DNA of 64,000 nucleotides from assembly GCF_000018585.1 (NCBI RefSeq), contig NC_009976.1:124001-188000 (forward strand), written 5' to 3'. The stretch is from Prochlorococcus marinus str. MIT 9211 (GTDB lineage: Bacteria > Cyanobacteriota > Cyanobacteriia > PCC-6307 > Cyanobiaceae). The position numbers and the translations under genes are program-made. Below, in pieces: positions 4,901 through 41,712 of the stretch. Under the pieces are notes generated by a model. The model ran no database searches. It was not told the origin of the DNA and was given only the letters and a program-made list of their open reading frames with translations. Position 1 is the first letter of the stretch. Each line of letters opens with the position of its first letter.

Positions 4901-6337
4901 TTAAGCTACTGAGCTTTTTAGGATTTCAGTAGCAGCTAGATGACCGCTCATAGTCGCACCCTCCATAGAATCAATGTAATCCTGACGGGTATAACTTCCT
5001 GCTAAAAAGAAATTACTCACAGGAGTAGATTGTTTAGGTCTATAGGGTTCCATACCTGGTGATTCCCGATATAGAGATTTTGCAAGCTTTACAACATTGC
5101 TCCACATTAGATTTAGGTCTTTTGAAGATGGGAAAAGCTCTCTTACTTGAGAATCAGTATGAAGAACAATATTTTCATTGGATTGTGAAATCCATGGATC
5201 ACCTGGTGTAAGAACACATTGTAGTAATGAGCCTAGGCCTTCTTTCCGATAATCTGTTGGACTGGTTATTGCAAGATCTGCAAAACAGCTGAAGTCTGCA
5301 TCTGCTGTATATAAAAGATTGTCTAGACCTGCAGGATTTTGAAGATCAACTTTAGCTGAATCATTATTGAGCTCAGTTACCCATCCGTCATAACGTAGCT
5401 GAACAGTTGCTACGGGGACAGCTTCGAGGTTATTAATTGCAGAAAAGAGAGGGAACTTATGCCATTCTTTAGGAATGATTTTTTGTATTCCAGGAACATC
5501 GCAAGCTGCAAGATATTGGTCGGCTTCAACACGGATTTCACCTGAGGGTGTATTGACTATGATTCCAGTGACTTTGGTATCAACATTATTTTCAAAACAT
5601 ATTTCTTTAACACGATGTCTGAGATTTAGCTTTCCACCTTTCTTTTCGATATATTCTAAAATTGGCTTTGTAAGCCATTTGTGAGGAGAACCTTTTAGCA
5701 GGTTTAACTTCGAAGCCTCAGTTTTAGCAGCAAACATCATAAATATCGTCAACATGCATCTTGCTGAAATTGATTGACAATCAATAAAACCTAGAGCATA
5801 AGCAATTGGATTCCACATTCGGTCGATGCTATTAAGACTCCCACCATGACTTAAGAACCATTCTTGAAAACTTATTGAATCCAGAGCTCTGATGGTTTTC
5901 ATTGCCCCTTCATAATCAACTAGTCCCTGCACGATTGGACTAGTGCCTAGAGCTAGTGCATTACGTAATTTATCTATCCAATTCAGTTGAGGGGTTGTAA
6001 AAAAAGCTTTTAGGCCATTAAATGGAGCCCCCAAAGCAAAGCGAAAGTCCAGAGATTTAAGGTCTCCACCTTTATTTACAAATAGATGAGTGTGATCTTT
6101 GGGCAATAAATTTTCAATTGCGCCAACTTTTTTCATTAATGAAAAAAGATTGGTGTAATTGAAGAAAAATACATGTAATCCCATTTCTATATGATTGCCT
6201 TCGGGATCTTCCCAACTGCCGACTTTCCCTCCTACGAAAGGCCTGGCTTCATAAAGATCTACTGAATGCCCAGCATCCAAAAGGTCTACTGCTGCAGACA
6301 GTCCTGCAAGACCAGAGCCAACTATTGCAACTTTCAC
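4901..6337 (-). CDS. crtQ: Zeta-carotene desaturase
   Basis: Plant-type FAD desaturase of 478 residues that converts zeta-carotene via neurosporene to lycopene, using quinone as acceptor, at the membrane. The N-terminal dinucleotide fold [10 protein letters not shown] (7-16) and [13 protein letters not shown] follow, and the C-terminal FAD motif [19 protein letters not shown] is clear. It is a paralogue of crtP at 30-31.4 kb; I assign this copy as crtQ because of [13 protein letters not shown] and the ZDS-like C-terminus, while the other has the PDS-like [12 protein letters not shown]. Divergent from the Fe-S carrier gene; followed by an SRPBCC gene. Confidence 0.9.
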
Positions 6338-25816: not shown

Positions 25817-26401
25817 TTAATCAATCAAAATTAATTTGATTTCGTGGGGAAAGATATCTTTAAGATCTTTCCCAGTTGTTACCCAAGCAATTGCTCTAAT
25901 TAAATCTATATAGTACTTTTTATTGCTTTCTTCTTTGCAATATGTTGAGCATGGAACAGAGACTTTCGATAGGCGTATGCCTCTACTTCCAGCAATAATA
26001 CTTCCAATTAACATCGCTCTATCTATATGATATTCGCTTGTGATTAACAAAATATGGTTGATTCCATCTTCAGCAAGATCGTCAACTATTGAGGTGAAGT
26101 TACTAAGTGTATCCTTTGCTCGGTAGTCTCTTCTAACAAGAGCAGAATCTATCCCCTCTTCTTTAACCATCCATTGAGAGTATTCGGGATTACTTCCTCC
26201 AGTAATTAATATAGGAAGCTTAAGTCTATTGGCAATCTTCAGACCTAAAAACTCTCTATCCAGATCTCCTCCTAAAACAAGTATTAATTGCGGTTTTCTT
26301 GTATTTGATGAAACTCTAATTAAAGGCTGAATAGTCCCAAATAAAATTATTAAGAAGATTCCACTAATTAATCCAAATAGATGAAATCTATGCAATCTCA
26401 C
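25817..26401 (-). CDS. YdcF-like (DUF218) membrane protein
   Basis: Protein of 194 residues with an N-terminal membrane anchor (about 8-25) and the DUF218 pattern: LILVLGGDLDREF, ITGGSNPEY, AKDTLSNF, and LLITSEYHIDRAM. The family (E. coli YdcF, SanA, ElyC) has been linked to envelope integrity or binding of nucleotide-like ligands, but its reaction is unsettled. Start is three bases after the tsaB stop, on the same strand. Confidence 0.8.
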   Translation of the reverse strand: MRLHRFHLFGLISGIFLIILFGTIQPLIRVSSNTRKPQLILVLGGDLDREFLGLKIANRLKLPILITGGSNPEYSQWMVKEEGIDSALVRRDYRAKDTLSNFTSIVDDLAEDGINHILLITSEYHIDRAMLIGSIIAGSRGIRLSKVSVPCSTYCKEESNKKYYIDLIRAIAWVTTGKDLKDIFPHEIKLILID

Positions 26402-26403
26402 TA

Positions 26404-27045
26404 TTAAGAATTTACTGGTGAAATAGGATAGTTTGGTAAAACATCAGCCCAATTACTTTTTATGTCTTTTTGATGGTTTAATAATGAGATTTCTATAAGC
26501 TTTACTATATCTTTTGAAAGATCTTCATGGACATATACTGCGGGCTCTACTTCAATTCCTAAAGGTAATAAGAACGGCTCTTTTAACTCAATAGGTAAAA
26601 AATCATCTTGATTTGTTGTAATTTGATATTTGCCACCTATTTTTCCACGCCTTTCGAGTTTTTTTATAATCCAGAAAGCATTTTTCCTTTGCAAATTGCT
26701 TAGGTTTTCTGCAAGTCTAGGAGCCATCAATGAAAAGCTACTTATTCCATCTAATGAACAATCAAGTTGTTGAGCGAGTGTTCTTGCTATTGCAACAGTT
26801 AGCCGAGTTCCTGTAAATCCCCCTGGCCCTTTCGCAACAGAAATTCTTGCTATTTGAGACCAATATTTACTGGGGATCAAGCTTTCAATATAAGTAAATA
26901 TATTGTTTGATAGCTTTCTACCACCTGGGAAAATTGCATGCTTAATCTTTCTATTAGGGTCCTTTAAATCTATTACTGCTACACCAAAATTTTCAGAACT
27001 ACTATGCAGAGCTAGTAAATATCTGGCTTTATTGATTAATGGCAT
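26404..27045 (-). CDS. tsaB: tRNA threonylcarbamoyladenosine protein TsaB
   Basis: ASKHA-fold partner of TsaD in making t6A37 of ANN-decoding tRNAs, including the tRNA-Asn in this window. The 213-residue protein has LALHSSSENFGVAV at the start and the conserved AKGPGGFTGTRLTVAIA region at about 70-86. It lies between ycf34 and the ydcF-like gene with gaps of seven and two bases: one minus-strand operon. Confidence 0.88.
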   Translation of the reverse strand: MPLINKARYLLALHSSSENFGVAVIDLKDPNRKIKHAIFPGGRKLSNNIFTYIESLIPSKYWSQIARISVAKGPGGFTGTRLTVAIARTLAQQLDCSLDGISSFSLMAPRLAENLSNLQRKNAFWIIKKLERRGKIGGKYQITTNQDDFLPIELKEPFLLPLGIEVEPAVYVHEDLSKDIVKLIEISLLNHQKDIKSNWADVLPNYPISPVNS

Positions 27046-27052
27046 TCTTCAT

Positions 27053-27304
27053 TTAAGTGGGAATTTCTTTCCCTGGACATAACCGGAGCCATTTACCTTC
27101 ATCTTCACGAAAACTCTCGCAACTTCTTACATCCCACTCAATTGAACTACTTTGATTTGGAATGTCTTTAACAATGATATGAATAGCAGGATTGTTACCT
27201 TGGAAGTCTGGAGATTGTGTTAAGTGTTCTACACCATGCTGCCTCTCCACAGCGTGATATGTCTTGCATCTATCTATCCAATGACAGTTCACACAGATAC
27301 ACAT
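27053..27304 (-). CDS. ycf34: Ycf34 iron-sulfur protein
   Basis: Short protein (83 residues) with an N-terminal cysteine motif: Cys2, Cys4, Cys7 and Cys13 in MCICVNCHWIDRCKTYHAVE, and a C-terminal EWDVRSCESF and GKWLRLCPG. Ycf34 in Synechocystis binds an Fe-S cluster and affects photosynthetic electron transport, as I recall. First gene of the minus-strand operon; divergent from cca over 46 bases. Confidence 0.92.
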   Translation of the reverse strand: MCICVNCHWIDRCKTYHAVERQHGVEHLTQSPDFQGNNPAIHIIVKDIPNQSSSIEWDVRSCESFREDEGKWLRLCPGKEIPT

Positions 27305-27350
27305 GTTCTTAGATGGTTCTAGTCACACAAAATGAAAAGGTGATCAAGCA

Positions 27351-28544
27351 GTGTTATTAGAATCGCTTTTGAGCAGACTGAAGCCATCTATGTGGCCTAT
27401 TAGTCTTAATCAGCTCCCAGCTGGATCAGCTCTGGTAGGAGGCGCAGTGAGAGATGCTTTGCTTGATGTTCTTCAGCATAAGCCAGATCTTGATTTAATT
27501 GTCCCATCCAAGGCTGTTGAATTTGCTAAAGAGTTTTCGGACAGAGAAGGAGGCAGTTGTGTTGTTCTTGATAAAGAAAGAGATATAGCTCGACTAGTTC
27601 TAAATGGTTGGACTATTGACCTTGCTTGTCAGGTTGGGAATTCTTTGGAAGAGGATTTATGGCGAAGAGATTACACAATTAATGCAATTGCTTTGACTCT
27701 TTCGAATGATCCGATAATTATTGATCCTACTGGAGGCATTCTTGACTTAGAAAAGAAAAAACTTGTTGCAATTAGTCAGCAAAATTTAATAGATGATCCT
27801 TTGAGGCTATTGAGAGGGTTCAGGTTGAGCTCTGAGTTGAGATTTGATCTAGATGAAATGACCAAGAATTTTATAAAAATTAATGCAAAGCTACTTAAAC
27901 ATGTTGCTCCAGAACGAATTAAAGGAGAGTTGGAGAGATTGGTTCATGGGGACTGGGCTGATCAAGTAATTCTGCAAATAAAGAAACTTGGACTTTTAGA
28001 ACCGTGGCAATCTACTGATCAATTTTTTACTTTTAACAATCAATCTTTGGAAACAACTTCTGCTTTCCATCAAAATGAGCTAAAAATTGCTTTGCCTATA
28101 GTTCGACTAACAAATTTATTAAGTGATCAAGGATTAAAAGAGTTAAGTTTTTCTAGAAAAAAATTACAAAATTGTCATCTTTTGCGCTTCTGGCAGCATA
28201 AAAATGACGGACTAGCCTTTGAAACTCTTGATGAAATTGAGCGCCTTCAGTTGCATAAGGATCTAGAAACTTTTTTACCTGCATTGATTTTGCAATTACC
28301 TCAGAGAGACCAGTCAGCTTGGTTGAAACGCTGGAGAGATAATGCTGATCCTCTTTTTCACCCATCTTGTCCCATTGATGGATTTACTTTGCAAGAGATG
28401 TTTCAATCTCCCAAAGGGCCTTGGATCGGCCAATTAATGAATTTACTTTGTAAGGAAAGAGCCTTTGGAAGGTTGCATAATCGAAAAGAAGCATTTCAAT
28501 TGGCTCGTTACTGGTGGGAACACAACCAACCTTTTTGTGATTAA
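27351..28544 (+). CDS. cca: CCA tRNA nucleotidyltransferase / poly(A) polymerase family
   Basis: Class II nucleotidyltransferase of 397 residues: GGAVRDALL with the downstream catalytic DLDL, RRDYTINAIAL, and LLRGFRLSSELRF. It should add or repair the 3' CCA of tRNAs, which is needed as the tRNA-Asn gene here has no encoded CCA. In some cyanobacteria the CCA function is split between C- and A-adding enzymes; I cannot tell from motifs. Start GTG 27351. Confidence 0.88.
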   Translation: MLLESLLSRLKPSMWPISLNQLPAGSALVGGAVRDALLDVLQHKPDLDLIVPSKAVEFAKEFSDREGGSCVVLDKERDIARLVLNGWTIDLACQVGNSLEEDLWRRDYTINAIALTLSNDPIIIDPTGGILDLEKKKLVAISQQNLIDDPLRLLRGFRLSSELRFDLDEMTKNFIKINAKLLKHVAPERIKGELERLVHGDWADQVILQIKKLGLLEPWQSTDQFFTFNNQSLETTSAFHQNELKIALPIVRLTNLLSDQGLKELSFSRKKLQNCHLLRFWQHKNDGLAFETLDEIERLQLHKDLETFLPALILQLPQRDQSAWLKRWRDNADPLFHPSCPIDGFTLQEMFQSPKGPWIGQLMNLLCKERAFGRLHNRKEAFQLARYWWEHNQPFCD

Positions 28545-28605
28545 CTACACATACGGAAGTCAGTTTTCCCCTGATGAGGTTCTTCTCCTATAGCCCTTTT
28601 GTTCC

Positions 28606-29040
28606 ATGAGTGTTCGTCTTTACATTGGTAACTTGCCGCAAAACTTGAAGCTCAAAGAGCTTGAAGCACTATTTGCAGGGATTGGGAAAGGGATTCGCTT
28701 TAAAGCCGTTTTAGACAGAGAAACAAAGGCTTGTAGAGGATTTGGCTTTGCAAATGTTGATGATGAGAAATTGGCAAATGAAGTTATCGAGCAGTTGAAT
28801 GGTCATGAATTTAATGGGAATAACTTGAGGGTTGAGCGATCAGAACGTAAGGAATCAAATCATGGTTCAGGAAGACGAAATAACTCTTCAGGCGCTTCCA
28901 AAACAAAAGCAGTAAAACGTAAAGATGTTAAGAAAGTTGTACATAGTGACGCTCCTAATGAACAAGCCCCTGATCCAAGATGGGCTGGGGAACTTTCTAA
29001 ATTAAAGGAACTTTTGGCTAATCAGAAAACTGCTGTTTGA
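28606..29040 (+). CDS. RRM-type RNA-binding protein
   Basis: Single RNA-recognition motif in residues 3-80: RNP2 LYIGNL at 5-10 and RNP1 RGFGFANV at 44-51. A basic, Ser/Asn/Gly-rich tail of about 60 residues follows, with a conserved-looking ending. Cyanobacterial Rbp proteins of this type bind U-rich RNA and often rise in the cold or take part in mRNA localisation at thylakoids. Target unknown. Confidence 0.88.
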   Translation: MSVRLYIGNLPQNLKLKELEALFAGIGKGIRFKAVLDRETKACRGFGFANVDDEKLANEVIEQLNGHEFNGNNLRVERSERKESNHGSGRRNNSSGASKTKAVKRKDVKKVVHSDAPNEQAPDPRWAGELSKLKELLANQKTAV

Positions 29041-29080
29041 GCAAAACTTAGGCTTGCAATTGCACTGATTGGGGAAAATT

Positions 29081-30021
29081 TTACTTAGTTTGGGCTATTA
29101 AATAACAGATTGGAATTTCTAGTATTTTTACCCATTTATTTACATAAGCTCGATTATTGAAAACGTCATAATCTAGTCTTTCTATTGAGTTTAAAATACC
29201 TCTATAAAGCCTTAAAGAGGTCCATACAGGCCATCTAGCATCTGAAGAAAGCCATCTAATGCCTGCCTCAGAAGAAGAAAACCATTCTCTTGCTCGCTTT
29301 AACTGAAATGCCATCAGTTCTTTCCACTGTGAATTTATTTTCCCAGCCATTAGATCACTTTCTGAATACCCAAATTTTTTAAGGTCTTCTTGTGGAATAT
29401 ATATTCGACCTCTTGCTCTATCTTCTCCCACATCTCTAAGTATGTTTGTTAGTTGATTCGCAATGCCTAGTGCTACTGCTGCTTTTGAAGGATCTGGCTT
29501 CTCACTCCAAGGAGCATTGGTATAGGCAGGGTCAAGACCCATTACGTTTTGAGTCATTAGACCAACTGTTCCAGCCACTCTGTAGCAATAAAGCTCCAAT
29601 TCTTTAAAAGTAGAGTATCTGCTTGTATTTAGATCCATTCTTTGGCCTTCAATCATGTCTAGATATGGTTGTATTGATTGGGGAAAATGTTCAAATGTAT
29701 CTGCCATCACTGCATCAAGCTCGTCTTTAACTTCTCCTGCAAATATCCCTCTAGTCTTTGCCTCCCATTCATCTAAGCGATCTGCTAATTCATTGATTGG
29801 TCTTTGTTGTGCTTCAGGGCTATCCATGAGTTCATCAGTTCTTCTACACCACACATAAATTGCCCAAATAGCTTTTCGTTTATTTGGTGGAAGAAGCAGT
29901 GTCCCTAGATAAAAGGTTTTTGCCCATTGGGCTGTTTCTTTTCTGCATATTTCATAGGCTTTATCGAGATCTACAAAAGAATTGTTTTTCATTAACTTTT
30001 GGTTTCGTAATCCACTATTCA

Positions 30022-30022
<1 letters not shown>
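29081..30022 (-). CDS. crtB: Phytoene synthase
   Basis: Condenses two geranylgeranyl diphosphates to 15-cis-phytoene, the first carotenoid step. In 313 residues the two Asp-rich Mg-diphosphate motifs are RRTDELMDS and RDVGEDRARGRIYIP. Its ATG shares one base with the crtP stop (TAATG), so crtP and crtB are coupled. A downstream Met at position 11 is an alternative start closer to the family core. Confidence 0.95.
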
Positions 30023-31449
<1,427 letters not shown>

Positions 31450-31545
31450 TTATATCGAATGCAACTTTAGTTAGAAAAGGTGCCTAAACTTTCCTTATGT
31501 TCAATTCTTTGTTATCAATACTTTTTATCTGCAGCACTTATTTAC

Positions 31546-31893
31546 ATGACAGATTCCATTCTTAAGTGCACTACCAGACACATCAGAATATTTACAGCTA
31601 GATGTGAGAACAACGATTTAGTGCAAGATTCTGAGCATCTCACACTTGACTTAGACCCTGACAACGAGTTCATTTGGGAGGAATTGGTTATTGGGAAAGT
31701 TCATAAACGTTTTTCTGAGTTAGTGGACTCATACTCTGGGAAGGACTTAAGTGACTACAACTTAAGGAAGATTGGTTCAGATCTAGAGGGCACTATTCGG
31801 CAACTCCTTCAAGCAGGAGAATTGAAATATAACCCTGATTGCCGTGTCCTTAACTATTCCATGGGATTACCCAGAACAAAGGATCTGTTGTGA
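31546..31893 (+). CDS. ndhM: NAD(P)H-quinone oxidoreductase subunit M
   Basis: Peripheral NDH-1 subunit found only in cyanobacteria and plastids. The 115 residues begin [20 protein letters not shown] and include [26 protein letters not shown] and NYSMGLPRT, all typical of NdhM. ATG 31546 chosen because the 22 residues upstream in frame are hydrophobic and not family-like. The stop overlaps the GTG of the next gene (GTGA). Confidence 0.9.
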
Positions 31894-32531
31894 CTCGGCC
31901 TCCTTTTAAAGGTCCATATTCTGGGCGTTCGAATAAGAATTCACAGAGAGATCGTTCTTCTTTTAGGCGAGATAGTTTTGATGAAAATTTGTATGGATAT
32001 TCATCAAACCCCAAAGGACCAAAAGCTTCAATTGGGGGCAGCACAATTAGCTTAAACACAGGAACAATAGCCGTTCTTGCAGGAGTTTTGGTTCTGGGCG
32101 TAGGTATTGGTAGTGCTATTACGAGTACTACTCAAGGTGGTGAAGGAAATATTGCGAGTCAACAGCAGTTAGATATGGCGGTTCCTGATCCAGAGTTTTG
32201 TAGGCAATGGGGTGCTAGTGCTTTTGTTATAGATATAGAGATGTACACCACTCTTAATCCATCAACTAGTTTTGTTACTCAACCTTCCTTGCAACCAGGA
32301 TGTGTGATTCGTAGAGAGAATTGGTCTCTTCTTCAAAAACAAGGAGTAATTACGAATGAAGATGTAAGAGAATGCAAGCAGAGAATGAATACTTTTGCCT
32401 ATATTGGTTCTATTAGAGATAATCCAACTGTTCGTTGTGTCTATCAAGCTGATGTGAATGATAATAAATTCATAATAAAGGGAGTAGAAGAAGATGGAAT
32501 TCGCATTAACCAAGAAGCAATTCAATTCTAA
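31890..32531 (+). CDS. DUF3172 membrane-anchored protein
   Basis: Protein of 213 residues: a basic, Ser/Arg/Asn-rich head (1-50), one transmembrane segment about 58-78 rich in Gly/Val/Ala, and a C-terminal domain with four cysteines (in [33 protein letters not shown]). I recognise it as cyanobacterial DUF3172, function unknown. The paired cysteines could form disulfides if the domain is outside the cytoplasm. GTG start overlaps ndhM, so it is probably coupled to an NDH-1 subunit. Confidence 0.75.
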
Positions 32532-32535
32532 TTTT

Positions 32536-33504
32536 TTAAAGTTTCTTCTTAACACCAGCTTCTTTATTTCTAAGAGGACTATCCCAACTTGCAAAAACAG
32601 GCAAAATATCTTTTGTAAATGCTTCTGATGCTCTTGATGTATACCTGCTAGGGTTGCTAATTAATTTTAATTCTCTTTTTACTTCTAGGTCTGCAATATT
32701 AGGTTTGTGAACAGTCCCAGCTGCTAATTCTCGTTCTATTGAAACTACCGGAAGAAATGCTGCTCCTAAGCCAGATTGCACAGCATTTTTAATTGCTTCT
32801 AATGAATTGAGCTCCATCTCAATTCGTAATCTCTGAATATCTAATCCAGAAGTTTTTAGGAGTTGGTCAACAACTTTTCTTGTAGTTGATTGAGAGTCTA
32901 AAGTAACAAAACTGAGACGATATAAATCTTCTTTTGTTAGTTCGTGGTGTCTTGCTAATGGATGTTTAACAGGAAGTACTAATGCCAATTCATCTGTTGC
33001 GTAAGGAATTATCTCAAGTAATTCATGTAGCTCTGCCGGCAGTTGTCCCCCAATTATTGCTAAATCAATTTGACCATTGGCAACACTCCAGCCTGTTCTT
33101 CGAGTGCTATGAACTTGAAGCACCACTGATACGTCCGGGAACTTTTGCCTGAAAAGTCCAATCATTCGAGGCATTAAATATGTTCCTGTTGTTTGGCTTG
33201 CTCCGATTATTAATGAGCCCCCTTTGAGGTTGTGTAAATCTTCAATCGCACCACAAGCTTCATCACACTGATTCAGGATTTTTTCACAATATTTCAGTAA
33301 AAGTTTTCCAGCCTCTGTTAATTGAGCTTTTCTTCCCCCTCTATCAAAAATTGCAATTTCTAATTGTTTTTCAAGATTTTGAATTTGAAGGCTTACTGCA
33401 GGCTGGGTTACATAAAGGGTTTCTGCAGCTTTTTTAAAGCTCCCTTCCTTAACTATTGCTTGAAGGATTCTGAGCTGATCAAGAGTGAAAGGCAGTTCAG
33501 CCAT
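32536..33504 (-). CDS. rbcR: LysR-type regulator, RbcR/NdhR (Ycf30) group
   Basis: LysR protein of 322 residues: N-terminal helix-turn-helix ([20 protein letters not shown], about 21-40) and a two-lobed effector domain starting near residue 93 ([15 protein letters not shown]). In cyanobacteria this group includes NdhR/CcmR, which controls carbon-uptake and some ndh genes, and CmpR, and in algae RbcR for Rubisco. Which genes it controls here is unknown; it is divergent from the Z-ISO-like gene that precedes ndhF and ndhD. Confidence 0.85.
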
Positions 33505-33597
33505 AACGGCTGTCTAATTTCAAGAACGGTAAAAACTTTAGGCTGGACAGTCGATGACTCAGAATCTAATAATTATTAAAGTGATCTTCTGCCACAA

Positions 33598-34335
33598 ATG
33601 TTTTCAGAAGGTATTCATCACAGCAGTTTTGTGATGCTATTGCTTTTGGTTTCTTTTGCAGTGATCCATAGTGGAGGAGCTGCGTTGAGAGTAAAAGCAG
33701 AATCCCTTATAGGGCCTAGGGCATGGAGGCTCATATTTGCTTCACTAAGCATCCCTGCTGCTGGAGTATTAATCATTTATTTCTTAGCTCATAGATATGA
33801 TGGTATTCGACTGTGGAACTTACAAGGAGTTCCTGGAATGGTTCAAATTGTGTGGTGCTTGACTGCTTTGAGTTTCTTGTTTTTATACCCTGCTACCTAC
33901 AACCTTCTTGAGATTCCTGCTTTGGCAAAGCCTCAAATGAGACTTTATGAACAAGGGATCATTAGAATTACAAGACACCCGCAGGCAGTTGGTCAGATTA
34001 TTTGGTGTTTTGCTCATGGTCTTTGGATTGGAAGCAGCTTTATGATGTGTACTTGTTTTGGTTTGATAGGGCATCATTTATTTGCTGTTTGGCATGGAGA
34101 TAAAAGATTAAGAGAAAAATTCGGCGCAGATTTTGAGGAACTTAAAAGAAATACTTCAGTCATTCCTTTTCTTGCGGTCATCAATGGACGACAAACATTA
34201 GAAATTAAAGAATTTCTTAGACCTTCCCAATTTGGAATTTGCATTGCAGTAGCTACGTTTTGGTGGGGGCATCGTTTTATCTCCTTTGGATCAGAAGTAT
34301 TTCTCTCTTCCAAGTTGTCAGAACTACTTGCCTGA
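33598..34335 (+). CDS. NnrU-family protein, probable 15-cis-zeta-carotene isomerase (Z-ISO)
   Basis: Integral membrane protein of 245 residues with about six hydrophobic segments. It carries SFAVIHSGGAALR (His24), the block RITRHPQAVGQIIWCFAH (His127 and His140), LIGHHLFAVWHGDKR (His159, His160, His166) and FWWGHRF (His225). The central block closely resembles plant Z-ISO as I remember it; Z-ISO is a heme b protein related to bacterial NnrU that isomerises the 15-cis bond between the PDS and ZDS steps. Both those steps are encoded in this window. NnrU-like with another role is the alternative. Precedes ndhF by 34 bases. Confidence 0.78.
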   Translation: MFSEGIHHSSFVMLLLLVSFAVIHSGGAALRVKAESLIGPRAWRLIFASLSIPAAGVLIIYFLAHRYDGIRLWNLQGVPGMVQIVWCLTALSFLFLYPATYNLLEIPALAKPQMRLYEQGIIRITRHPQAVGQIIWCFAHGLWIGSSFMMCTCFGLIGHHLFAVWHGDKRLREKFGADFEELKRNTSVIPFLAVINGRQTLEIKEFLRPSQFGICIAVATFWWGHRFISFGSEVFLSSKLSELLA

Positions 34336-34369
34336 AATGCCTACACTCACAAGGACCTGAGAATACAGG

Positions 34370-36373
34370 ATGCTATCGGCCGCTGAAATCGCATGGTTAA
34401 TACCTTTGCTCCCTCTCATCGGGGCGGTGTTATCAGGATTGGGATTAATTAGTTTCAACCGAGAAACCAATCGGTTGAGAAAGCCTGTCGCAATAAGTTT
34501 GTTGACATGTGTAGGGGCTTCAGCTGTATTGAGTTATGCAGTTCTTTTAGAACAAGTTTCTGGGGCCCCTCCAGTAGAGCATCTTTTTATATGGGCTAGT
34601 GCTGGAGACTTCAGTTTGCCAATGGGGTATGTAGTCGACCCTTTGGCTGCGGTAATGCTGTCTTTGGTTACCACAATTGCCCTTTTGGTAATGATTTATT
34701 CCCATGGGTATATGGCTCATGACAAAGGATATGTGAGATTTTTCACCTATTTGGCATTATTTAGTAGCTCAATGCTGGGCTTAATAATTAGTCCAAACTT
34801 GCTTGAAATATATGTTTTTTGGGAATTAGTTGGAATGTGCTCATATCTTTTAGTTGGGTTCTGGTATGACAGAGATGGTGCAGCTCATGCGGCTCAAAAA
34901 GCTTTTGTTGTAAATAGAGTTGGTGATTTTGGACTTTTACTTGGGATTCTTGGACTGTTTTGGGCTACGGGAAGTTTTGATTTTGATGGGATAGCTACAG
35001 GTCTGGCTGATGCAACTGCTTCTGGCAATGTACCTGTATGGGCGGCCTTATTGCTTTGTTTCTTAGTCTTTATGGGCCCTATGGCTAAATCTGCTCAATT
35101 TCCATTGCATGTTTGGTTGCCAGATGCCATGGAAGGGCCAACACCTATCTCAGCATTAATTCATGCCGCGACCATGGTTGCAGCTGGGGTGTTTCTTGTC
35201 GCGAGACTTGAGCCTCTGTATAGCCAATTCCCTTTTATTGGACTATTAATAGCCATTTTTGGAACAATTACATGCTTTTTAGGGGCTTCAATTGCTTTGA
35301 CCCAGATGGATTTAAAGAAGGGTTTAGCGTATAGCACTGTTTCTCAGCTTGGTTACATGATGCTTGCAATGGGTTGTGGTGCGCCCATTGCGGGGATGTT
35401 CCATTTGGTCACGCATGCTTTCTTTAAGGCAATGCTTTTCTTGGGATCAGGTTCGGTGATTCATGCAATGGAAGAAGTAGTAGGGCATGAACCGATTCTT
35501 GCTCAAGATATGAGACTAATGGGTGGTTTACGCAAAAAGATGCCTATTACTTCAATGACTTTTTTGATTGGATGTGTTGCGATTAGTGGAATTCCTCCTT
35601 TGGCTGGTTTCTGGAGTAAAGATGAAATACTTGGAGAGGCGTTTAATACATTCCCAATCCTTTGGGGAATTGGCTTCCTAACTGCTGGGATGACAGCCTT
35701 TTATATGTTTAGGCTGTATTTCCTTACATTTGAGGGTAGCTTTAGGGGAGATAATGTAGAGCTTCAAGAGGAGTTATTAGTTCTTGCAGGAAAAGATAAT
35801 GAAGAGCAAGAAGATCATCATTCTGGTTCAATTCACGAATCCGCTTGGCCAATGACAGTGCCATTAGTTGTTTTAGCTGTGCCTTCTGTGATTATTGGCT
35901 TTTTAGGTACTCCATGGAATAGCAGTTTTGCAAAATTACTTGATCCAACAGAGGCAATTGAGATGGCAACTAATTTTAGTTGGGGGGAATTCCTTCCTCT
36001 AGCCTTAGGGTCTGTTGCCATTTCAATCGCTGGGATTTCCTTGGCAGTTTTTGCTTATTTCTTGAAGCGAATCGATTTAGCTACAAACATTGCACAGAGA
36101 TACCCAGCAATTAATGCTTTTTTATCGAACAAGTGGTATTTAGATGATATTAATGAAAGGATTTTTGTTCGTGGGAGCAGAAAATTAGCTCGTGAAGTTT
36201 TAGAGGTGGATGCCAAGGTTGTTGATGGAGTTGTTAATTTAACTGGGCTTTTAACTTTAGGAAGCGGAGAAGGATTGAAATATTTTGAGACTGGCAGAGC
36301 ACAGTTTTATGCACTCATTGTCTTTGGAGGAGTAATAGCACTAGTAGCTCTTTTTGGAGTATTGGGTACTTAA
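34370..36373 (+). CDS. ndhF: NAD(P)H-quinone oxidoreductase subunit 5
   Basis: Largest proton-pumping membrane subunit (667 residues), Nuo-L-like. Visible motifs: YVVDPLAAVML, WELVGMCSYLLVGFW with its conserved Glu, FPLHVWLPDAMEGPTPISALIHAATMV around residue 245-270 and HLVTHAFFKAMLFLGSGSVIHAM. The C-terminal part includes a lateral-helix-like region. As marine picocyanobacteria are thought to have only the respiratory/cyclic NDH-1L form, I read it as NdhF1. ndhD follows after 98 bases. Confidence 0.95.
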   Translation: MLSAAEIAWLIPLLPLIGAVLSGLGLISFNRETNRLRKPVAISLLTCVGASAVLSYAVLLEQVSGAPPVEHLFIWASAGDFSLPMGYVVDPLAAVMLSLVTTIALLVMIYSHGYMAHDKGYVRFFTYLALFSSSMLGLIISPNLLEIYVFWELVGMCSYLLVGFWYDRDGAAHAAQKAFVVNRVGDFGLLLGILGLFWATGSFDFDGIATGLADATASGNVPVWAALLLCFLVFMGPMAKSAQFPLHVWLPDAMEGPTPISALIHAATMVAAGVFLVARLEPLYSQFPFIGLLIAIFGTITCFLGASIALTQMDLKKGLAYSTVSQLGYMMLAMGCGAPIAGMFHLVTHAFFKAMLFLGSGSVIHAMEEVVGHEPILAQDMRLMGGLRKKMPITSMTFLIGCVAISGIPPLAGFWSKDEILGEAFNTFPILWGIGFLTAGMTAFYMFRLYFLTFEGSFRGDNVELQEELLVLAGKDNEEQEDHHSGSIHESAWPMTVPLVVLAVPSVIIGFLGTPWNSSFAKLLDPTEAIEMATNFSWGEFLPLALGSVAISIAGISLAVFAYFLKRIDLATNIAQRYPAINAFLSNKWYLDDINERIFVRGSRKLAREVLEVDAKVVDGVVNLTGLLTLGSGEGLKYFETGRAQFYALIVFGGVIALVALFGVLGT

Positions 36374-36471
36374 CTTGCTTAAATTTGTTAGTTGTGTGTG
36401 TCATCCCCTATCGATTGGATGCGATGTCTCTAAGTATTTCTACACTCCAAAAAGTGGTGAAGATTTAAGCA

Positions 36472-38148
36472 GTGTTTGAATGTACGCCAATTTCAATTTT
36501 GGCAACTTTTTCTGGAACTGTTCCAGAACCAATTGAGGCAGATTTTCCTTGGTTAAGTCTTTCTATTCTTTTCCCAATATTTGGTTCATTAGTTGTTCCA
36601 TTTATTCCTGATAAAGGAGATGGGAAAACAGTTCGATGGTATGCATTAGGGATTGCGTTAGTAACTTTTTTAATAACTGTAGGTGCTTACTTAAAAGGAT
36701 ATGACCCATCCCAGGAAGGTTTGCAGTTGGCAGAAAGGGTGTCTTGGCTTCCTGATTTAGGTCTCACATGGGCTGTAGGAGCAGATGGACTCTCCATGCC
36801 TCTAATACTTCTGACTAGCTTTATTACTGCATTAGCTGTACTTGCAGCATGGCCTGTCAGCTTTAAACCTAAATTGTTTTTCTTCCTCATCTTGGCAATG
36901 GATGGAGGTCAGATAGCAGTATTTGCTGTGCAAGATATGCTGCTTTTCTTTTTGGCATGGGAGCTTGAACTCTTGCCTGTTTATCTTTTGCTAGCTATTT
37001 GGGGAGGAAAGAAAAGACAATATGCGGCTACAAAATTCATTATTTATACAGCTGGTAGTTCGCTTTTTATTCTTCTTGCCGCTTTGGCAATGGGTTTCTT
37101 TGGAGGAGGAACGCCAAACTTTGAATTTACTCATCTCGCCAATCAAGATTTCGGTACAGGATTTCAATTGTTGTGTTATGGGGGCTTACTAATTGCTTTT
37201 GGGGTGAAACTTCCTGTAGTGCCTTTGCATACTTGGTTGCCTGATGCACATGGAGAAGCAACAGCTCCTGTTCATATGCTTTTGGCAGGTATTTTGTTGA
37301 AGATGGGTGGATATGCCCTTTTAAGGTTTAATGCACAATTGCTCCCTGCAGCACATGCACAATTTGCCCCTTTGTTAATTGTGCTTGGGGTGGTAAATAT
37401 TATTTATGCAGCGCTGACATCTTTTGCGCAAAGGAACCTGAAACGAAAAATTGCTTATAGCTCTATTAGTCATATGGGATTTGTTCTTATAGGCATAGGT
37501 AGCTTTAGCTCGCTGGGAACAAGCGGAGCAATGTTGCAGATGGTTAGCCATGGCTTAATTGGTGCAAGCTTGTTCTTCTTAGTCGGAGCTACTTATGACA
37601 GAACAAGAACTCTGCAACTCAATGAAATGGGAGGGGTTGGCCAAAAAATGCGCATTATGTTTGCTCTTTGGACTACATGTTCATTGGCTTCTTTGGCATT
37701 ACCAGGCATGAGTGGCTTTGTTTCTGAATTAATGGTATTTACAGGTTTTGTAACCGATGAAGTTTATACACTTCCTTTTAGGATTGTGATTGCAGGCCTT
37801 GCTGCTATTGGAGTTATTCTGACTCCAATTTATTTATTATCAATGCTTCGAGAGATATTTTTTGGCAAAGAGAATGTTGAGTTTCTTTCTAATAGGGAAT
37901 TAGTTGATGCAGAACCTAGAGAGATTTATGTAATAGGTAGTCTGCTTGTCCCGATCATTGGGATAGGTTTATATCCAAGGATTATGACTGAGACTTATAT
38001 AGCTTCTATAGATGGTTTGGTTGAAAGAGATAAGATTGCTATTGAACAAATGCTTAAACCATCAGAAACTATTTCTTCAAATAAGAACTTGTCATTAATA
38101 ACTAGCTCTACGCCAAGTTTGACTCCTTATAAAGTAAGGAAAAGCTGA
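36472..38148 (+). CDS. ndhD: NAD(P)H-quinone oxidoreductase subunit 4
   Basis: Antiporter-like membrane subunit of NDH-1 (558 residues, about 14 membrane helices). Motifs: [35 protein letters not shown] with the conserved Glu, [21 protein letters not shown] and [13 protein letters not shown] 36472 is the likely start. The C-terminal 30 residues are polar and variable. Pairs with NdhF at the far end of the membrane arm. Confidence 0.94.
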
Positions 38149-38232
38149 CAGAAAACTTCTAATTTTTTTAATCCTTGCTTATTGCATTTCAATAATCCAT
38201 TTATTAATTTTCTATTGTGTAATTTCTTTGTA

Positions 38233-38601
38233 ATGCAAAAGATCAACTTGAAAGCAATCAATTTTGCCGTGATGTTTGTTTTGGCTCTTTTGATGGTTTA
38301 TTTCACCCTTGAAAATACTTCTGCAGCGACTGTAAATATTGCTCCTGGTGTTTCAGGGTCCCTGCCTATAGCAGCATTGGTATTAATTGCTTCTGGCCTA
38401 GGTGCTTGCGGAGCATGGCTTTTTGCTGGTTGGAGTGACAAATTACGAGGTGATGAAATTCGTGAGTTGGAAGATACCAAGAATCGAATTAAGGAATTGG
38501 AGTTGGACTACAACCGTCTAAAGGCAAAGCAAAATAATCTTTTGCCCTTTATGAGTTTTTCTGGCGAGAAGGAATTAGAGATAGATAAAGATGCCGCATA
38601 A
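38233..38601 (+). CDS. LapA/DUF1049-like membrane protein
   Basis: Protein of 122 residues with two membrane segments (about 8-27 and 45-67: FAVMFVLALLMVYFTLENT and IAALVLIASGLGACGAWLFAG), then an amphipathic, charged coiled-coil-like tail (about 75-105). This is the layout of DUF1049/LapA proteins; in E. coli LapA works with LapB in envelope assembly, but the cyanobacterial role is unknown. ATG 38233 chosen; upstream residues in frame look like leader DNA. It follows ndhD by 84 bases. Confidence 0.7.
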   Translation: MQKINLKAINFAVMFVLALLMVYFTLENTSAATVNIAPGVSGSLPIAALVLIASGLGACGAWLFAGWSDKLRGDEIRELEDTKNRIKELELDYNRLKAKQNNLLPFMSFSGEKELEIDKDAA

Positions 38602-38675
38602 ATAATTGGTTCTTTAAAGTTTGTATGGCGCATACTTCCTTCTCTCGTTAACTTTCTCTAAGAGTCATCTAGTCT

Positions 38676-39566
38676 TTGCCGATTGACGGATTAAAAACAG
38701 CACCACAGTCAGGCGCAAGGCTTGCCATTCGCCTAATACAAGATGCTGTAGAGAAAGGTGAAATTGACCCTTGGGATGTTGATGTAATTCCAGTGATTGA
38801 TGGTTTTTTAGATCAATTAAGGCAGAAGATACAAAGTCCAAGAAATATTTCTTCTTCAATAGCCTATAGGGGGGGTACCTTTGAAAAAGATTTATCAGAT
38901 AGTAGTGAGGCATTTCTTGCTGCTTCTGTCTTAGTTGGCTTGAAAGCTGAAATTCTGGAATCGGAAACTTTCCCTCCAGAATCTGATTTCGACGATATGG
39001 ATGATGGTAGTTTTGCTGACCAAGAATGGATTGATCCTAAATTAGATCTTCCCAGATATCCTGAACGACATTTATATAGACGACCAGTTGCGCCCCCTCC
39101 ACTGCGACGATCAATCTCTTTAGCAGAATTAATTGAGCAATTGGAAGCCATTGCAGAAACAATAGAATCTGATGAATTAAATATTCGAAGGAAAAGACGG
39201 GAAAAGAGATTTAGTGATAAACAAATAATTCAACAAGTCAGCTCACTGGCACATCGCGAAAAACTTCCAGAGACAACTGCTGCATTGGGGGTTTTTTTGA
39301 ATAGTTGTGAAGAAGCTCTTAATTGGGTAGATTTTGAATTCTTGGTCGAACTATGGAAAGGTATAGCTAGTCAGGAATTAGATTCTGATCGCGTTGGCGT
39401 TTTTTGGGCATTGTTATTTTTATGTTCTCAGGGCAAAGTTGAGCTTCAACAAGACAATTCTTTATTTGGCAAGCTAAAGCTTAAAAGGATTCTCGCACCT
39501 GGAACTATTGCTCAACTACCTCTGAAAACATTTGACGTGACAGCTGTTGCTCCGGCCGCGGCTTAG
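38676..39566 (+). CDS. scpA: Segregation and condensation protein A
   Basis: Kleisin-type partner of SMC and ScpB in chromosome condensation. The 296-residue protein has ARLAIRLIQDAVEKGEIDPW and VDVIPVIDGFLDQL at the N-terminus, the helical SMC-binding part, and a C-terminal winged helix with VGVFWALLFLCSQGKVEL. The middle (about 100-150) is acidic and Pro-rich. Start TTG 38676, as no ATG occurs before the conserved region. Confidence 0.85.
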   Translation: MPIDGLKTAPQSGARLAIRLIQDAVEKGEIDPWDVDVIPVIDGFLDQLRQKIQSPRNISSSIAYRGGTFEKDLSDSSEAFLAASVLVGLKAEILESETFPPESDFDDMDDGSFADQEWIDPKLDLPRYPERHLYRRPVAPPPLRRSISLAELIEQLEAIAETIESDELNIRRKRREKRFSDKQIIQQVSSLAHREKLPETTAALGVFLNSCEEALNWVDFEFLVELWKGIASQELDSDRVGVFWALLFLCSQGKVELQQDNSLFGKLKLKRILAPGTIAQLPLKTFDVTAVAPAAA

Positions 39567-39623
39567 TAGTAGGTGTAAATATCAGTCTATTTTGTCTTAG
39601 TTAATGAGGGACCTAAAACGCCT

Positions 39624-40802
39624 ATGAAGGCGATGATCTTGGCTGCAGGCAAAGGAACACGAGTACAGCCAATCACTCATGTGATTCCAAAGCCAATGAT
39701 TCCAATTCTTCAGAAACCCGTTATGGAATTTCTGTTGGAACTTCTTAAGGAGCATGGTTTTACAGAAGTCATGGTCAATGTTTCACATTTGGCTGAAGAG
39801 ATTGAGAATTATTTTAGAGATGGACAGAGGTTTGGAGTTGAGATTGCTTATAGCTTTGAAGGACGTATAGAAGATGGAGAGTTAATTGGAGATGCTCTAG
39901 GCTCTGCTGGCGGGTTAAAAAAAATTCAAGATTTCCAGGAATTTTTTGATGATACTTTTGTTGTTTTATGTGGCGATGCGCTTATTGATTTAGACCTTAC
40001 CCAGGCAGTTAGACGGCATAAGGAGAAAGGAGCCTTAGCAACTTTGATCACTAAGAGAGTTCCTAAAGAACAAGTCAGCAGTTATGGGGTAGTGGTGACT
40101 GATGAAAATGATCGAGTTAAAGCATTCCAAGAAAAACCATCCTTAGACAATGCATTAAGTGAGACTATTAATACAGGCATATATCTCTTTGAACCTGAGA
40201 TTTTTAAACATATTCCCTCAAATAAACCGTTTGATATTGGTTCGGATCTCTTCCCTAAGTTAGTTGAAATGGAGGCTCCTTTCTATGCTTTGCCAATGGA
40301 CTTTGAGTGGGTTGATATTGGGAAGGTACCAGATTATTGGAGAGCTATTAGGAGTGTCCTCTTGGGAGACGTTCGCCAAGTGGATATCCCAGGTAAGGAA
40401 GTGAGGCCTGGAGTTTTTACTGGACTTAATGTTGCCGCAAATTGGGACAAGATAAAAGTTGATGGCCCTATTTATGTAGGCGGCATGACAAGAATTGAAG
40501 ATGGTGTAACCATTATTGGACCTTCAATGATTGGACCTAGTTGTTGTATTTGCGAAGGAGCTACTATTGATAATTCAATTATTTTTGATTATTCACGTAT
40601 TGGCTCAGGAGTTCAGTTGGTAGAAAAACTAGTTTTTGGCCGATATTGCGTAGATAAAAATGGCGATCATTTTGATTTGCAAGAAGCAGCGCTAGATTGG
40701 CTAATTACTGATGCTAGAAGGCAAGACTTAGGAGAGCCCTCTCCGCAGCAAAAGGCTATGGCTGAGCTTCTAGGAACAGACCTTATTGGTTCAATTTCTT
40801 GA
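39624..40802 (+). CDS. Sugar-1-phosphate nucleotidyltransferase (GDP-mannose pyrophosphorylase-like)
   Basis: Protein of 392 residues: nucleotidyltransferase domain (1 to about 235) with AAGKGTRVQPITHVIPKPM, LCGDALIDLDL (metal-binding Asp), INTGIYLFEPE and FEWVDIGK, then a left-handed helix region (about 255-350: GPIYVGGMTRIEDGVTIIG) as in ManC/GMPP-type enzymes. It should make a nucleoside-diphosphate sugar for envelope polysaccharide or glycosylation; GDP-mannose versus glucose-1-phosphate specificity is not clear. Its end overlaps metF tail to tail by 20 bases. Confidence 0.85.
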   Translation: MKAMILAAGKGTRVQPITHVIPKPMIPILQKPVMEFLLELLKEHGFTEVMVNVSHLAEEIENYFRDGQRFGVEIAYSFEGRIEDGELIGDALGSAGGLKKIQDFQEFFDDTFVVLCGDALIDLDLTQAVRRHKEKGALATLITKRVPKEQVSSYGVVVTDENDRVKAFQEKPSLDNALSETINTGIYLFEPEIFKHIPSNKPFDIGSDLFPKLVEMEAPFYALPMDFEWVDIGKVPDYWRAIRSVLLGDVRQVDIPGKEVRPGVFTGLNVAANWDKIKVDGPIYVGGMTRIEDGVTIIGPSMIGPSCCICEGATIDNSIIFDYSRIGSGVQLVEKLVFGRYCVDKNGDHFDLQEAALDWLITDARRQDLGEPSPQQKAMAELLGTDLIGSIS

Positions 40803-41712
40803 CATTGGCTTGATCAAGGATTTGCGGGATCAAATGTTCTGCTCTTATAGCCATTATATGAACTCCTTTCGTTATCCCTAAGAAACTTTTCACTTGCTCC
40901 GCTGCGATTGTGATTCCTTCTTTTATTGGCTCATGAGCATTGTCTAATCTTGCAAGAATTGAATTGGGTATACATGCACCTGGTACGACTTTGTTGATAA
41001 ATGCAGCATTTTTTGCAGATTTCAATAAGAAAACTCCTGCCAGGACAGGGAATTCAAGAGGGTCTGCAATTTCTTTGGAGAAACGTTCTAACACTCTTGA
41101 GTTCATAACCATTTGAGTCTGTAAGAATTGCGCTCCAGCAAGCTTTTTTCTTTCCAGTCTTTTGAGCAGGCTATTGAGATTCTTACAGTTGGGGTCAGCT
41201 GCTGCACCTGCAAATAATGCAGTTCTTCCATTAGGTAATTGCCCTTGCACAGGATCTTCTCCTCTATTTAATGCAGCAACTTGCTTTAGTAGTTGTACGG
41301 ATTCGAAGTCATGAACAGGCCTAGCATTTGGTTGATCACCAGCTTTGACAGGATCTCCAGTAAGACAAAGCACGTTTTTAATACCAAGAGCATGCGCTCC
41401 AAGTATTTCCGCTTGTAAACCGATTCTGTTCTTATCTCTACATGCTATTTGAAGTACTGGTTCCAGGTTTGCCTCTAAAAGTAATTTACAAACAGCAAGA
41501 CTGCTCATTCGCATAATTGCTCTACTCCCATCTGTCACGTTGAGGGCATGAACCCTGTCGGAAAGTTTGGAAGCCATTGCAATGGCATGTGATGGGTCCC
41601 CACCTCGAGGGGGCATTATCTCAGCTGTAATTGCTGCGCCTTCGGATTCGAGGGCATATTGAAGAACAGAATCCAATTGTTTTCTAATGAGATAATTACT
41701 ATCGCTTATCAA
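40783..41712 (-). CDS. metF: 5,10-methylenetetrahydrofolate reductase
   Basis: FAD enzyme (309 residues, MTHFR barrel) that makes 5-methyl-THF for methionine synthesis. Conserved parts: AITAEIMPPRGGDPSHAI at the start, LNVTDGSRAIMRMSSL, GIKNVLCLTGDPVKAGD around 110-130, and QFLQTQMVMN. Start is 47 bases from the divergent PedR-like gene. Confidence 0.88.
   Translation of the reverse strand: MISDSNYLIRKQLDSVLQYALESEGAAITAEIMPPRGGDPSHAIAMASKLSDRVHALNVTDGSRAIMRMSSLAVCKLLLEANLEPVLQIACRDKNRIGLQAEILGAHALGIKNVLCLTGDPVKAGDQPNARPVHDFESVQLLKQVAALNRGEDPVQGQLPNGRTALFAGAAADPNCKNLNSLLKRLERKKLAGAQFLQTQMVMNSRVLERFSKEIADPLEFPVLAGVFLLKSAKNAAFINKVVPGACIPNSILARLDNAHEPIKEGITIAAEQVKSFLGITKGVHIMAIRAEHLIPQILDQANVKKLNQ

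Follow-up and report, generated by a model that had tools for sequence, protein, structure and literature searches.

An NnrU-family gene of Prochlorococcus marinus MIT 9211 very probably encodes the 15-cis-zeta-carotene isomerase Z-ISO

Does a cyanobacterial gene that bears the family name NnrU belong with the NnrU genes of denitrification clusters or with the carotenoid pathway? The question is raised by an open reading frame (ORF) with an ATG start at 33598-34335 (+) of a 64,000-nucleotide stretch of the Prochlorococcus marinus str. MIT 9211 genome (NC_009976.1, positions 124,001 to 188,000; hereafter the window), which encodes a membrane protein of 245 residues and which an initial annotation, made from the sequence alone, took for 15-cis-zeta-carotene isomerase (Z-ISO). 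The protein matches the Pfam model NnrU (PF07298) over residues 12-228 with 133.5 bits against a cut-off of 24.7, while the sole match in an NCBIfam scan (E <= 0.01) was a methyltransferase model at 18 bits against a cut-off of 160; family-model scans also gave weak matches to PEMT and isoprenylcysteine methyltransferase. No other NnrU-family match occurs in the 1,688,963-base genome, and the closest named relatives of this protein, at 80-81% identity, lie in Prochlorococcus genomes (L002, L012). We regard the ORF as confirmed, a real gene and the single-copy Z-ISO ortholog of a small-genome Prochlorococcus. Residue spacing, phylogeny, distribution and the decay of the gene in one relative uphold the initial annotation, and we hold it nearly certain that the product is Z-ISO, a membrane protein expected by homology to carry heme b.

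The functional residues of Synechocystis Slr1599, H29, C142, H145 and D173, correspond to H150, C263, H266 and D294 of maize Z-ISO (PMC9505123), and the window protein carries H24 (33667..33669, +), C137 (34006..34008, +), H140 (34015..34017, +) and D168 (34099..34101, +) at spacings of 113, 3 and 28 residues, identical in all three proteins. The equivalences follow from the published spacing; the link to the plant enzymes runs through published residue numbers (PMC9505123), the Slr1599 and plant sequences not being aligned to the window protein. Within that frame no compared feature separates the window protein from Slr1599 (Synechocystis sp. PCC 6803), which has the same NnrU domain, and about 240 residues; for its six membrane helices, predicted in PMC9505123, six long helices in a predicted structure of the window protein are the putative counterparts. 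The maize and Arabidopsis enzymes are described there as having in addition a transit peptide and a seventh helix. For heme binding the same paper prefers H266 and H354 of the maize enzyme and regards H150 as catalytic or structural, calls the assignment preliminary and notes that H354 was not required in earlier work. The window counterparts are H140, as a proposed heme ligand, H24, as the catalytic or structural histidine, and H225 (34270..34272, +), which on its conservation is the likely equivalent of H354 and second proposed ligand and which lies 57 residues past D168, where the corresponding maize distance is 60.

These positions were followed through a cyanobacterial alignment of 141 rows, made up of the window protein, 80 loci of a named collection and 60 whole genomes (a non-random set of the 30 loci with the highest scores and selections from other families), with two rows ending at contig edges. 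H24, H140 and D168 occur in all 141 rows and H225 in 140, with one gap; position 137 is Cys in 140 of the 141 and is the only cysteine conserved across cyanobacterial Z-ISO, and an HH...WHGD block is near-invariant. The initial annotation had singled out two blocks, RITRHPQAVGQIIWCFAH (residues 123-140) and HHLFAVWHGDKR (residues 159-170), as marks of Z-ISO. This stood for C137 and the HH...WHGD block and failed for the RHP motif and H140 of the first block, which are shared by all five NnrU proteins aligned from alphaproteobacterial nor/NnrS clusters. These five also keep H225, and H24 is found in all three rows that reach its column (L116 and L117 were shortened at the N-terminus in the alignment by start choice; annotated starts were used in the tree). 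They differ from the window protein in having S or A at position 137 (5/5), in lacking the HH...W.G block (5/5) and a His at position 65, and in adjoining nor or NnrS genes; at position 168 four have E and one D. Because RHP and H140 occur in NnrU as well, C137 and the HH...WHGD block alone discriminate Z-ISO. The histidines proposed as heme ligands thus occur beyond Z-ISO, and the heme site may predate the enzyme. As L114-L118 retain His in the H140 and H225 columns in every row (5/5), NnrU, too, may be a heme protein.

The shared RHP motif and histidines H24, H140 and H225 are the features that would suit a generic NnrU-family membrane protein engaged in nitrogen-oxide or heme handling rather than carotenoid synthesis. 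So would the Pfam name, although that name says little, because the same model also matches in Caulobacter and cannot tell the two apart. Against such a function stand the absence of C137 and the HH...WHGD block from the five NnrU rows and the proven activity of Slr1599, which isomerises zeta-carotene in E. coli (2022, PMC9505123), as do the phylogeny and the joint decay of Z-ISO with its pathway partners described below, and we consider it very improbable. In the tree, 56 cyanobacterial rows split from 9 alphaproteobacterial NnrU-family rows with 100/100 support, and the clustering with denitrification NnrU that would have spoken for this alternative was not seen. Of the nine NnrU rows, six belong to clusters with annotated nor or NnrS genes and three to records that carry no annotation at that place, and one (L117) sits on a very long branch; starts were as annotated, except for L162, L163 and L165, where they were chosen by script. 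The window protein falls beside Prochlorococcus and two genomes from the window's family (support 95/92). Judged from these sequences, the tree rejects a denitrification NnrU, and the link to plants is not one that the tree itself shows.

The distribution of the family agrees with a Z-ISO. Among 291 sampled genomes, PF07298 matched in 138 of the 141 that belong to the class, and the 150 others of the phylum yielded no match; 133 matchless genomes were placed outside the class by list order rather than by name. Four cyanobacterial genomes (L150, L151, L152, L153) match the NnrU model once more outside Z-ISO, very weakly (23-26 bits). A Z-ISO with 75% identity to that of the window lies on a contig deposited as Candidatus Microthrix (L004, DBNM01000136.1), which is probably picocyanobacterial contamination of that assembly. 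No phage-borne Z-ISO was matched among 50,697 phage records.

A natural test of the assignment is provided by genome G168, a single contig of 5,985,875 bases with family label f7, which we take to be Nostocaceae and of which many sampled genomes keep Z-ISO. Three enzymes of the route fall below their cut-offs in this genome: 15-cis-phytoene desaturase (PDS; best 84 bits against 569), of which only some 30 C-terminal residues persist beside crtB (L175:1216-1299), zeta-carotene desaturase (ZDS; best 82 bits against 622), and CRTISO (best piece 195 bits against 587, with 929 in the control genome G022). Of Z-ISO itself only about 60 bases are left (23 codons with 83% amino-acid identity; L166:2770-2838), between a LysR gene and trxC plus ndhF, where relatives carry the intact gene. 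G168 has thus lost Z-ISO together with the preceding and following enzymes and has kept crtB, as the assignment predicts. It encodes instead a CrtI-family protein of 549 residues (540 bits against a cut-off of 238; L173:1325-2974), whose best match in the only collection searched, one of plasmids, is Deinococcus deserti CrtI at 69% identity. Two psaA/psaB pairs indicate that G168 is presumably phototrophic, and from its gene content it looks like a genome that swapped the plant-type route for bacterial CrtI. This apparent swap is worth following. A 2025 review restricts CrtI among cyanobacteria to Gloeobacter violaceus and describes a CrtI-like CrtQa in Anabaena (PMC11857680), and in open-licence literature we found nothing on horizontally transferred CrtI for carotenoids in Nostocales cyanobacteria.

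What would the enzyme do in this organism? By homology, the window protein would isomerise tri-cis-zeta-carotene at its 15-15' cis bond, assisted by heme b, and would be needed where light is too weak for photochemical isomerisation, so that carotenoids could be made in the dark; heme binding, activity and any redox control are here expectations drawn from relatives. A knockout of slr1599 accumulates tri-cis-zeta-carotene in near-darkness and has normal carotenoids in light (PMC9505123). The latter result, like the small genomes of the window's family, would also suit a derivative of Z-ISO whose activity was lost or altered in streamlined Prochlorococcus, with light isomerising in its place. 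The ORF is, however, open over its full length and retains all four functional residues, and Z-ISO is kept in each of the 36 sampled genomes of the family, including genomes of 1.6-1.7 Mb, and we give an inactive descendant very little credence.

Some points weigh against the Z-ISO reading. One of the 141 cyanobacterial rows has Gly at position 137; two draft genomes that carry PDS (G074, G229) have no Z-ISO, through an assembly gap or real loss; in the literature consulted we saw no activity test of a Prochlorococcus protein; and the tree has neither plant nor named Synechocystis rows, which leaves residue spacing and the monophyly of the cyanobacterial rows as the basis for Z-ISO orthology. 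Genes of this kind have been described before. Activity of the Arthrospira enzyme was shown earlier, as cited in PMC9505123, and the same paper attributes the listing of a Prochlorococcus homolog to an earlier publication and itself contains the redox idea for Z-ISO. We conclude that the window gene is an ordinary cyanobacterial version of a described family.

An AlphaFold2 model of the window protein has a mean pLDDT of 81.7, is weak at 103-116, and contains six helices of at least 15 residues (6-29, 40-65, 81-95, 128-144, 147-175 and 209-236), which are features of the model and not a membrane-topology prediction. Foldseek with the model against the Protein Data Bank gave no match at E <= 0.001, and no solved structure related by sequence to the window protein was found. 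A structural comparison ranked first a sterol reductase (Z 10.0, root-mean-square deviation (rmsd) 3.3, 116 aligned residues), followed by a steroid 5-alpha-reductase (Z 8.8, rmsd 4.8, 179 aligned) and an isoprenylcysteine methyltransferase, ICMT (Z 8.3, rmsd 3.4, 128 aligned). This ranking is in line with the weak sequence matches to PEMT and isoprenylcysteine methyltransferase; we claim no fold kinship with the reductases or ICMT, since Z below about 13 can mean a mere common arrangement in helical proteins.

The family models identify crtB (phytoene synthase; 29081..30022, -), crtP (PDS; 30022..31440, -) and crtQ (ZDS; 4901..6337, -), CrtB staying, with 444 bits, below the NCBIfam cut-off of 550 but far exceeding that of Pfam. 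With the NnrU-family gene they span 29.4 kb, bearing out the initial statements that crtB, crtP and crtQ lie within 30 kb and that PDS, Z-ISO and ZDS are all present in the window. The closeness of crtQ carries little weight, because about 27 kb and many other genes separate it from Z-ISO. crtH (CRTISO) is outside the window (G000:C1:544004-545500, 880 bits), which makes the four-enzyme route complete in the genome. Upstream lie ndhM (31480..31893, +) and a gene for a DUF3172 protein (31890..32531), also assigned by family models; the start of the latter overlaps the end of ndhM, and the two adjoin in relatives L142-L147 and L149 as well. Downstream, Z-ISO is followed by ndhF (34370..36373, +) and ndhD (36472..38148, +), and no nor or nir gene is among the genes annotated from 25817 to 41712.

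Divergent from Z-ISO stands a gene for a LysR-type regulator (32536..33504, -), separated from it by 93 bases (33505..33597). Family models assign this gene to the LysR family only, and the name RbcR is our presumption. The divergent arrangement of a LysR gene and Z-ISO recurs in 44 of the 60 distinct whole genomes and in all 79 testable named loci. The RbcR consensus motif given in PMC13249358, which is its own reverse complement, has no occurrence with up to two mismatches in 33505-33597, and alignment of the intergenic regions across LysR/Z-ISO loci revealed no convincing shared site. Control of Z-ISO by RbcR, considered on account of the conserved divergent gene, is no more than a possibility.

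A second conserved neighbour bears on how Z-ISO might be regulated in other families. TrxC is a thioredoxin with the motif WCGL/V/IC that was described as confined to cyanobacteria and missing from Prochlorococcus, as inactive in two standard assays, and as encoded next to nnrU in many genomes (2018, PMC6262485); that paper calls the function of NnrU unknown, proposes a TrxC-NnrU interaction and reports more carotenoid in a trxC knockout and less in overexpressors. We searched the 291 genomes with a TrxC model built from 30 rows, all taken from beside Z-ISO, and assigned matches of at least 122 bits to the TrxC class, five genomes being borderline (two counted at 122-125 bits, three uncounted at 118-119). 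Among the 102 Z-ISO genomes outside the window's family, 81 carry trxC downstream of Z-ISO in the same orientation (for example L157:2275-2658 (-) and L161:4012-4443 (+)); the gene lies elsewhere in 12 and is absent from 9. Two of the 12, G270 and G153, have Z-ISO at a contig edge, where pairing cannot be judged. The distance between the matches is 59 to 1,734 bases (median 166), intervening ORFs not having been checked. A count of WC..C ORFs gave 37 of the 60 whole genomes, among them L128 with an ordinary WCGPC, and a 'WCVLC' ORF in L083 is spurious. The window's family, with 36 genomes sampled, has no TrxC-class match, and the best match in the window genome (104.7 bits) is within the range of ordinary thioredoxins.

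The conserved pairing, together with the carotenoid content of the mutants, suggests that TrxC acts on Z-ISO. Several points speak against this: Z-ISO has only one conserved cysteine, the trxC phenotype was seen in light (PMC6262485), where Z-ISO is dispensable (PMC9505123), TrxC is intact in G168, which lacks Z-ISO, and ndhF, the published alternative for the TrxC link (PMC6262485), is found no more than about 3 kb downstream in 17 of the 35 whole genomes that could be tested. The simple form of the idea, an intramolecular Z-ISO disulfide opened by TrxC, was rejected, C137 being the only conserved cysteine. A more specific proposal, that Z-ISO is a client of TrxC, which sets the thiol state of the invariant C137 near the heme and so throttles carotenoid flux by redox, with the window's family running Z-ISO free of that control, strikes us as doubtful.

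Z-ISO genes can remain unnamed, because the protein matches the Pfam NnrU model only and, at E <= 0.01, drew no NCBIfam model other than the methyltransferase far below its cut-off, and C137 with the HH...WHGD block offers a simple signature that separates them from NnrU. The pairing of trxC with Z-ISO, for which the open-licence literature searched gave no paper linking the two in cyanobacteria and which is newer than the identification of Z-ISO itself, gives an orphan thioredoxin a testable target.
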